This document shows positions 28,974 to 35,830 of a stretch of DNA of 44,174 nt, one piece after another (the stretch's first letter is position 1; every line of letters starts with the position of its first letter). Location: assembly GCA_015063165.1 (NCBI GenBank), contig SUSZ01000016.1:1-44174 (forward strand). The letters run 5' to 3'. Made by a program: the position numbers and the translations under genes. Source of the stretch: Thermoplasmata archaeon (GTDB taxonomy: Archaea > Thermoplasmatota > Thermoplasmata > Methanomassiliicoccales > Methanomethylophilaceae). The notes under the pieces were generated by a model. The model had not been told where the DNA came from. It saw only the letters and a program-made list of their open reading frames with translations, and did no database searches.

Positions 28974-29351
28974 TCAGAGCATCTTCAGAGAGCCTGTGAC
29001 ACGGTCGATATCCCCTGCGACGGCGGGCCCGATGCCCACGCAGGTGACCGTCCCAGGCTCTATCTGGGTCCTTCCGGCATCCGTGATCGTGGATGTGTGG
29101 AGGCCTACGCTTCTTGCCTCAGCCATGTAGCGGGTGAGCTCCTCGAAGGAATCCACCTTGAGGACGACCTTGGCCTGGCCGGAGCTGTACCATCCGTCGA
29201 AGCTCTTCTTGTCCTTCTTCTCGGCGTACAGGGCGCAATCGACGGCCGCATGGGCCACCTGGGCGGCAGTCTTGCCCTTGCCCATCTTGAGGTCGTTCCT
29301 CACCAACACCACGAGCTTGTACTCGTCCGATCTCAAGAAAGATGCTACCAT
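28974..29351 (-). CDS. pth2: Peptidyl-tRNA hydrolase, archaeal/eukaryotic type
   Basis: Releases tRNA from stalled peptidyl-tRNA. Pth2 fold of 125 residues: YKLVVLVRNDLKMGKGKTAAQVAHAAV carries the conserved Lys/Gln/His set, followed by KVVLKVDSFEEL and the C-terminal DAGRTQIEPGTVTCVGIGPA signature. Start 29351 is preferred because a CTTTAAGG element is centred about 26 nt upstream; an in-frame ATG at 29363 would add four residues. Convergent with thiM with no gap between stop codons. Confidence 0.94.
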   Translation of the reverse strand: MVASFLRSDEYKLVVLVRNDLKMGKGKTAAQVAHAAVDCALYAEKKDKKSFDGWYSSGQAKVVLKVDSFEELTRYMAEARSVGLHTSTITDAGRTQIEPGTVTCVGIGPAVAGDIDRVTGSLKML

Positions 29352-29476
29352 GAAACGTCGCATGTCCGTCCCCTTTAAGGGTCTTTCGCATGTCAGAAGG
29401 GCTGATCGGAATAAGTTGAATTGACGGAACCATTCGTCCCCTGCGCTCCTTTCCCAGAAGCCATCCGACCTATGGT

Positions 29477-30838
29477 CTATCCGGCATCCGTGAATGTCAG
29501 GACCCCGTCCGCAGAATAGACCCCTAGGGAATCGCCGTACATGGAACGTACCTTCCGGCACACCATCCCCTTGATTACCGACCTGACGGGATCGTCGTCG
29601 TCCCCGGAGATCCTGATCATCAAGGGATTCCTTCCGATGACCTCGGTCGTGATGCCCAGGCGTTCCGCGAACAGGTCTGTGATGTCCTTGTCGTAAGCTT
29701 CCTTGCTGACCTGCCCTATGGATTCCATCATGACCGAGGCGTCGAAACCCATGTTCTCGACCTAGGATGCAACGAATCTGAGATAGCCGTCCATGAAGCC
29801 GTACCTCTCGGTGATGGCCTCTATCCCGGAGTACCTCTTGGAAGAAGTTGAGGTCATCAAGAAAATATGATAGTTGGAGTGATAGCGGCCGACTCCGTTC
29901 TCGTCCACACGGAACTCCAGCAGCCCGTCCTCCATCATCTTCCCGATGTTGTATGAAAGGGTGGATCTTGGAGTATCGAAGCAGCTTATGATCTCCTGCA
30001 TGCTGACAGGGCACTCCGAAATGAACTTCAGGACGTCGATCTGGATGTCGTTCGTCAGGACTTTGGTCCACCTATCCTTCTCCAGTATGGCGAAGCGCTG
30101 CATCTCCTCGTTCCTCTTGATGGTGCGGCAGGAGCTGAGATCCTCGGAAGACTCGAAGACGGTCTTGAACCTGGTCACTCCGTCTACCTGATGCTCCTCT
30201 TTCGGCTCTGCGCACAGGTTCGTTCCTGAAAGCCTGCGGATGATCGCGGAGAACGTGTACAGCATCATATTGAGGAACCCCTTCAGGGATTCGTCCCCAT
30301 CGATTATCACCGTCAAAGGGCTCACCGAGTAGACGTTCACTTTGAATCCGGTGGCCTCATTCAGGATGCGCTTGGCGATGACGATGGCCTCTTCGAACTT
30401 GCATGAGCTAATGAAGCGGACCTTCGATTCGGCCACGGCTTCGGAATACCACTTCTCCATGACCAAGGCGTCTATCCCTATGGATTTCAGATACACCTTC
30501 ATCAGATAACCCATAGAGCAGCTGGTCTAGATGTCGGGGACGTCCTCGAACGGGTTGTACCCTATGAAAACCGTATCGGAGCATGTGGAATAGATCACGG
30601 TCTTCTTTCCAGGCGTCTGGCGGCACCTGACTATGATATCCTTCTTCACCATCTTTTCTAGAATGAAATGTAGCGAGGACGAGGGCATCCCAAGCTCTGA
30701 TGCGAGTATGCTGGGCCTCTTCTAAGCTCCCTCCAGCATGTCGTAGATCTGCATCTGATGAGGGTCGGTGACCACAACGGCTCCTTTGTCGGTCATCTAG
30801 ATTGCGAATCTGACCTTTTCCCAATCATGTGGGCACAT
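29477..30838 (-). CDS. Duplicated winged-helix transcriptional regulator with four in-frame TAG codons
   Basis: One frame runs from ATG 30838 to TAG 29477-29479 (454 codons) with internal TAG at 30797-30799, 30722-30724, 30527-30529 and 29762-29764, and no TAA or TGA. It contains two copies of the same unit: winged helix (copy 1 with ILASELGMPSSSLHFILEKM; copy 2 with SMQEIISCFDTPRSTLSYNI) plus an alpha/beta domain (GYLMKVYL... GIDALVME... PLTVIIDGDE; GYLRFVAS-TAG-VENMGFDASVMME... PLMIRISGDD). The last internal TAG lies inside copy 2, so that copy is whole only with readthrough. A TATATC box centred about 26 nt before ATG 30838 supports this start; ATG 30796 is the alternative. If TAG is always sense, the frame ends at TGA 29393-29395. 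Most likely pyrrolysine-containing; a decayed gene is the alternative. Confidence 0.7.
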
Positions 30839-30878
30839 CGTCCGAATAATATAGCAAATGGATATAACCCTTGTTAAG

Positions 30879-30912
30879 TAATACAAATGTATTATCTATT
30901 TTAGTTGTATTA
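30879..30912. promoter_or_regulatory. Palindromic candidate operator for the TAG-rich regulator
   Basis: TAATACA-AA-TGTATTA (30879-30894) is a perfect 7-bp dyad, with another TGTATTA half-site at 30906-30912. It sits directly upstream of the regulator's TATA box, where autoregulation by a dimeric winged-helix protein would be expected. Confidence 0.45.
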
Positions 30913-30955
30913 TATTTAAACATTTTTTAATTTCTACTATTTTTTTATTTTTATA

Positions 30956-30998
30956 AAGAAATAATGGTTAACGAATGATTCAAAAACCGTTATTTCTT
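30956..30998. repeat. Long inverted repeat in the AT-rich island
   Basis: Arms 30956-30969 and 30985-30998 pair over 14 positions with a single T-G wobble (AAGAAATAA...TTATTTCTT plus GGTT/AACC), loop 15 nt. Could be a terminator-like RNA hairpin or a protein-binding cruciform; not followed by a clean T-tract on the plus strand. Confidence 0.5.
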
Positions 30999-31213
30999 AT
31001 TCCAAATATAAAAATCACACATTGTTAGCATATAATCAGGATAACTTTCAAAATATTATTTAGGAATGATTAAATTTTAAAATTTTTTATCCAACAAAAT
31101 CGTATAATTTATAAAACAAAAAGATGAATTAAAAATCGTTGATATTGCCAAGTACACTAAAAACTGTTAGAGAGCCGACGGCGTTTCTCCGCAAGCCCTC
31201 GGAATTCGAGCCT

Positions 31214-35311: not shown

Positions 35312-35389
35312 GTGCTAGCTTATGACGAGTGGTTTATAAGTATTTCCCGCCAGCGGACATGGTTTATCAATGGAACCCTTTTTCAGGCC

Positions 35390-35830
35390 ATGGAGTTCGC
35401 CGTCAAGAGGTTCGAGGAGCTAACCTTGGAGGAGCTGTACGAGATCCTAAGGCTGAGAGTCGACGTGTTCGTTGTGGAGCAGGACTGCCCTTATCCGGAG
35501 ATAGACGGCATCGACTACGACAGCATCCACGTTTTCTCGATGGAGAACGGTCGTGTCACGGCATACCTGCGCTATTTCGAATCCGACGGATGCATGAGGA
35601 TCGGCCGCGTCATCGCCGCGGAGCGCGGGAAAGGCCACGGAAAGGAGCTGATGACCAAGGGCATCGACCTCATCAGGACGACGACAAATGCCGACAGGAT
35701 AGTCCTGGGCGCGCAGGTCGTCGCGATGGGATTCTACGAATCTTTAGGATTCAAAGCCTGCTCCGAGCCCTACGACGAGGACGGGATAATGCATATCGCC
35801 ATGTCCTTACAGTTGAATAAAGAAAAGTGA
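35390..35830 (+). CDS. GNAT acetyltransferase, ElaA family
   Basis: 146 residues with ElaA-type start FEELTLEELYEILRLRVDVFVVEQ and acetyl-CoA-binding loop IGRVIAAERGKGHGKELM (R/Q-x-x-G-x-G/A pattern as RGKGHG), followed by GAQVVAMGFYESLGF. Transfers an acetyl group to an unknown amine or protein N-terminus. TTTATC is centred about 25 nt upstream of ATG 35390; the open frame further upstream overlaps the promoter. Monocistronic. Confidence 0.88.
   Translation: MEFAVKRFEELTLEELYEILRLRVDVFVVEQDCPYPEIDGIDYDSIHVFSMENGRVTAYLRYFESDGCMRIGRVIAAERGKGHGKELMTKGIDLIRTTTNADRIVLGAQVVAMGFYESLGFKACSEPYDEDGIMHIAMSLQLNKEK

Follow-up and report, generated by a model that had tools for sequence, protein, structure and literature searches.

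A fast-evolving two-module regulator gene of a Methanomethylophilaceae archaeon with four interior TAG codons, most likely read as pyrrolysine

Introduction

In the methylamine methyltransferases MtmB, MtbB and MttB, an in-frame TAG specifies pyrrolysine, and the residue is both catalytic and conserved. In MsvR of methanogens, a DNA-binding domain and a V4R-type sensor are joined in a single archaeal regulator. Kivenson et al. are said to have described, in Science in 2025, archaea whose genetic code assigns every TAG codon to pyrrolysine. Beyond the methylamine methyltransferases, the use of this amino acid has been predicted and little tested. In ‘Candidatus Methanomethylophilus alvus’, in-frame TAG codons were predicted in 16 genes that do not encode methyltransferases, one of them commented on as an Rv0623-like transcription factor; TAG accounts for only 1.6% of the stops of that genome, and constitutive decoding of the codon as pyrrolysine has been proposed (Borrel et al., 2014; PMC4153887). 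The regulation of pyrrolysine insertion by competition with the release factor has been reviewed (PMC9499178).

Here, we report the computational analysis of a gene in a DNA stretch of 44,174 nt (the window) from a thermoplasmatal archaeon of the Methanomethylophilaceae (genome G000), a methanogen of the gut type. An earlier note on this DNA had proposed that the gene encodes a transcription factor with four or five pyrrolysines, whose synthesis could report on the supply of this amino acid.

The Reading Frame and Its TAG Codons

On the minus strand, translation from the ATG at 30838 meets TAG at codons 14, 39, 104, 359 and 454 before the TGA at 29393-29395, the sole TAA or TGA of the frame. 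The lowest bases that had been claimed for the five TAGs (30797, 30722, 30527, 29762 and 29477) are exact, and the translation bears out that neither TAA nor TGA occurs before 29393. The features of the frame are the following:

30862..30872, minus strand: promoter element AAGGGTTATAT, identical in the closest relative (G026)
29393..30838, minus strand: regulator reading frame, 481 codons ahead of the TGA at 29393, with homologues and a syntenic orthologue in G026
30797..30799, minus strand: TAG codon 14; TAG at the same position in G026, Leu in 21 of 24 TAG-less homologues
30722..30724, minus strand: TAG codon 39; first winged helix, loop; a variable column, with Arg (CGG) at the G026 site
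30527..30529, minus strand: TAG codon 104, in the linker that joins the winged helix to the sensor domain; G026 has Trp (TGG)
29762..29764, minus strand: TAG codon 359; second sensor domain, helix; TAG in G026 too, column highly variable elsewhere
29477..29479, minus strand: TAG codon 454, where conservation ends; either a terminator or a pyrrolysine codon

Judged from the sequence and its relatives, the gene is predicted to encode one protein of 481 residues in which TAG is read as an amino acid; the orthologues show that the segments belong together, as the earlier note had claimed. Its count of four or five pyrrolysines holds for the four interior sites, which are well supported, and is less certain for codon 454: since this codon lies near the point where homology ends, and the structure model is of low confidence after residue 437, it may be either a terminator or a pyrrolysine codon.

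The TATA part of the promoter element is centred about 27 nt before the ATG at 30838 in the upstream alignment of G000 and G026 and, from archaeal promoter spacing, the element fits the TATA box of a leaderless transcript that would begin at this ATG, upstream of the first TAG. An ATG immediately follows TAG 14 in G000 and has no counterpart in G026, so that a start skipping this TAG is possible in G000 alone. The gap upstream of the regulator (30839-31160) is very AT-rich and is present also in G026.

Homologues and Comparison With the Closest Relative

A search of the whole genomes of 60 relatives found the regulator in most members of the same genus; it is absent or undetected in several congeners. 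Apart from G000 and G026, 23 copies from the same genus and one from the same family align over approximately residues 10-427, and none of them has a stop within the alignment; TAG is missing from this region in 24 of the 26 homologues aligned. The homologues are continuous over all segments. One locus with this archaeal regulator (L088) belongs to a record titled uncultured Eggerthellaceae bacterium; the bin is probably chimeric or carries the wrong label.

The closest copy, that of G026, is 44% identical and carries TAG at its codons 14, 96 and 357 with no other type of stop. Two of these, codons 14 and 357, are the homologues of codons 14 and 359 in G000 and are thus TAG in both species; codon 96 corresponds to Phe (TTC) in G000. 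The conservation of the TAGs among orthologues is therefore partial: two sites are shared with G026, and the other 24 aligned homologues have no TAG there. Over about 450 codons neither G000 nor G026 shows a TAA, a TGA or a frameshift, and the differences between them fall at codon positions 1, 2 and 3 in numbers of 184, 139 and 240 (over 450 codons), a coding-like distribution. Constraint is significant on both sides of TAG 104 (segment 15-103, p = 0.009; segment 105-358, p = 2e-6); segments 1-13, 15-38 and 360-452, taken singly, are too short or too diverged and gave no significant constraint.

Domain Organization and Predicted Structure

In the structure model (mean pLDDT 75; 82 for module 1 alone), a unit made up of a winged helix and then an alpha/beta domain occurs twice:

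30131..30805, minus strand: module 1, winged helix (residues ~12-95) and V4R/H-NOX-like sensor (~109-230), from Pfam, model and fold search
29525..30100, minus strand: module 2, winged helix (~248-330; Pfam MarR_2 and HTH_20 at 263-313) and second sensor domain (~339-435), from Pfam and model

The winged-helix matches exceed the curated Pfam cut-offs (MarR_2, 39.2 bits against 27; HTH_20, 36.7 bits against 27) and Foldseek matches the regulator to CzrA/SmtB/ZitR, whereas the Pfam search gave no match to a methyltransferase family (MtmB/MtbB/MttB). Both parts of the earlier description, a transcription factor and a protein outside the methylamine methyltransferases, are thus supported, as far as a protein resembling transcription regulators is concerned. 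For the alpha/beta domain, the second of the repeated unit, Foldseek returned H-NOX (E ~1e-4) and the MopR sensor (E ~1e-3), with E values of ~1e-4 to 4e-3 over H-NOX and the MopR/PoxR sensors and TM-scores of only 0.33-0.49, and Pfam gave no V4R or H-NOX match at E 0.01; the sensor domains may therefore resemble V4R/H-NOX, by fold only, and would presumably bind a ligand. The gene would specify two ArsR/MarR-type winged helices, each with a V4R/H-NOX-like sensor, in a protein that is presumably made and presumably binds DNA.

Gene Order at the Locus

The loci of G000 and G026 are syntenic, in the order zinc-ribbon gene, AT-rich gap, regulator, pth2, thiM (in the window) and TGT. The gene next to the regulator is:

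28974..29348, minus strand: pth2, peptidyl-tRNA hydrolase (PF01981, 143 bits); adjoins the regulator in G026 too and lies one gene further on in the congener locus L076

Neither pyl genes nor methylamine/methyltransferase genes were found beside the regulator, whose neighbours are thiM, TGT and pth2. In congeners the gene lies at a related locus and is mostly longer (~815-835 aa), its product extending through a membrane-like segment to an additional domain, as at L076; there thiE comes first, then the regulator, the zinc-ribbon gene and pth2. From this gene order and from the longer proteins of the congeners, it seems that both the membrane tail and the gene in between have been lost in G000 and G026.

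Two other observations concern the locus. In G026 (L055 6148-8004) no stop separates the regulator frame from pth2 and the open frame runs on through the latter, so that the regulator appears to be fused in frame to Pth2; pth2 nevertheless seems to retain a promoter element of its own there (CGAAAGGCCCTTAAAT). In most congeners, as at L076 6001-8508, a membrane-anchored regulator is followed by the zinc-ribbon gene; the pair is possibly an undescribed one-component system of the genus.

Pyrrolysine Machinery and Release Factor

The presence of pyl genes is established: G000 encodes PylB, PylC and PylD over the NCBIfam cut-offs and PylS over the cut-off by its C-terminal model, and a tRNA-Pyl with a CUA anticodon lies beside them (ARAGORN). 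No other CUA tRNA was found in the 286 kb of G000 that were scanned. A gene of the mttB family carries the canonical TAG, and most congeners have PylS over the cut-off. The single-copy aRF1 has unchanged NIKS and YxCxxxF motifs. An altered release factor was considered as an explanation of TAG reading; with these motifs intact, none is apparent. As aRF1 looks ordinary, competition at UAG is to be expected, and the yield of a protein with four TAGs could be low.

TAG as a General Sense Codon

The use of TAG in G000 was measured on 286 kb of stretches. Where TAG has coding sequence before it, in-frame coding sequence also follows in 8 of 19 cases (two of the eight from the regulator), against 8 of 194 for TAA and TGA together (Fisher p = 7e-6), where the TGA cases include neighbouring genes that share a frame by chance (e.g., pylS to pylB). 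The corresponding figures for G026 are 6/12 (one of the six from the regulator) and 4/85 (p = 1.6e-4), while in two relatives without PylS coding sequence lies beyond TAG in 1 of 18. Apparent internal TAGs in antisense frames or in upstream extensions of a frame (e.g., window 35317-35449) are artefacts and were left uncounted. Of the terminators, TAG accounts for 2.2-6.9% in the four congeneric genomes sampled and for 12% in the two relatives without PylS (G035 and G047), all from small samples; in G000 it is 11 of the 197 scored terminators, some of which may read through to the next stop.

The genes concerned are diverse. In an O-acetylhomoserine sulfhydrylase (L041 2590-4005), TAG codon 444 stands where congeners have Gln, and the C-terminal extension beyond it is shared by two of them; a nitroreductase near pylS (L035 18448-18960) has an in-frame TAG at codon 81, where others have Glu, and would depend on the adjoining pyl system. 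In a large, conserved protein of 990 residues, the TAG is kept in G026 and is Lys in G025; a kinase-like protein is among the G000 genes interrupted by TAG, and in-frame TAGs are also present in the genes of an AMP phosphorylase (G014) and a RarA-like ATPase (G026). Neither a common sequence context nor a downstream PYLIS-like fold was found around the TAGs. The occurrence of TAG in many unrelated genes and its rarity as a terminator show that it behaves as a general sense codon in this lineage. The residue inserted is most likely pyrrolysine. Where gene calls in this genus stop at TAG, real proteins come out divided or shortened.

TAG Density and Conservation of the Sites

About 15 other supported interior TAGs were found in the ~80,000 codons sampled. 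With 20 taken as a generous bound, at most 0.11 TAGs are predicted for the 453 codons of the regulator, which has 4 (Poisson 6e-6; ~0.015 after ~2,300 genes, an estimated number). Most of the sites lie in variable columns, with entropy percentiles of 90 for codon 39, 72 for codon 104, 92 for codon 359 and 91 for codon 96 of G026; codon 14, at the 33rd percentile, is the exception. The regulator is the fastest-evolving of the locus genes compared (44%, against 91% for TGT), and the retention of 2 of its 4 TAGs in G026 is close to the general residue identity of 44%. With fast evolution, variable TAG columns and retention at the level of general identity, the gene is most simply read as one under weak constraint that gathers TAG as it would any rare codon; a role as sensor would call for a degree of conservation that these sites do not show.

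Discussion

The explanation that we favour, and regard as very probable, is that the gene encodes one full-length soluble regulator with two modules, each a winged helix and a V4R/H-NOX-like sensor, and that its four interior TAGs would be read by tRNA-Pyl(CUA) as pyrrolysine. As TAG works as a general sense codon in this lineage of the Methanomethylophilaceae, no special signal would be needed at the regulator. The TAGs probably arose through ordinary point mutations, for the most part at sites where substitutions are tolerated, and may be near-neutral; the gene is a fast-evolving member of a genus-wide regulator family and has probably lost its membrane anchor and outer domain in this lineage.

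The same rapid evolution could be taken as decay, the regulator being on its way out of the lineage and the TAGs tolerated nonsense mutations, and the lost membrane tail, the absence or non-detection of the gene in some congeners and the joining of its frame to pth2 in G026 point the same way. A gene in decay should not, however, have remained free of TAA, TGA and frameshifts over ~450 codons in two species that diverge in a coding manner, share two TAGs at identical positions and conserve the promoter element, and we consider this unlikely. The proposal that synthesis could report on the pyrrolysine supply fares slightly worse. It would have the TAGs kept by selection, so that the full regulator is made only with ample pyrrolysine or Pyl-tRNA and a translational sensor adjusts transcription. 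A TAG density far above the sampled genome rate, the retention of two TAGs in a species whose protein is otherwise so diverged and the DNA-binding type of the product speak for it. However, such retention is no higher than the general identity predicts, the sites are mostly variable and nearly all aligned homologues do without them; many other genes carry TAG, none of them a dedicated reporter, the 990-residue protein likewise keeps its TAG between G000 and G026, and the neighbours have no link to pyrrolysine. The sensor proposal is thus not borne out, and we give it very little credence.

Further still from the evidence is a division of the frame into several short genes ending at ordinary TAG stops, for example 29762-30514 (250 aa) and 29477-29752 (91 aa). 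ATG codons after TAG 14 and inside later segments, together with a normal-looking aRF1, would allow it; yet homologues run through all segments, most of the cuts would fall inside predicted domains, G026 is interrupted at partly different places and TAG is sense in many other genes of the genome, which makes it highly improbable. The least credible alternative accepts TAG as sense and assigns it to a standard amino acid carried by an unseen suppressor tRNA. The tRNA scan did cover only part of the genome (286 kb), but the sole CUA tRNA in that part is tRNA-Pyl, and no residue is preferred at the homologous positions, where Leu, Arg, Met, Ser, Trp, Gln, Glu and Lys all occur, so that we assign it next to no weight. 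The gene, with pyrrolysine very probably at its four interior TAGs, is a rich example of a known habit of the genetic code and unlikely to be a special pyrrolysine sensor.

With four TAGs, two of them common to diverged species, the gene offers a good test of whether pyrrolysine is tolerated or functional outside the methylamine methyltransferases, and of the efficiency with which several UAGs in one message are read in an archaeon whose release factor looks ordinary.

Comparison With Known Systems

In MtmB, MtbB and MttB the TAG codon is conserved, whereas the TAGs of the regulator are several, lie mostly at variable positions and are missing in most homologues. The protein itself is like MsvR in combining DNA-binding and sensor domains; it differs from MsvR in having two tandem modules and no Pfam V4R match, the likeness being one of fold comparison only. 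The code reported by Kivenson et al. likewise involves genome-wide sense TAG in archaea that encode pyrrolysine, while in the present genome TAG may still terminate some genes. A parallel in kind is ‘Ca. M. alvus’, from the same archaeal family, where TAG also occurs in genes other than those of methyltransferases; the published table gives no number of TAGs per protein and no two-module winged-helix/sensor regulator (PMC4153887), whereas the gene described here has four TAGs, two of them shared with a second species. The regulator thus adds to a known kind of pyrrolysine gene an example with unusually many sites and with support from two species.
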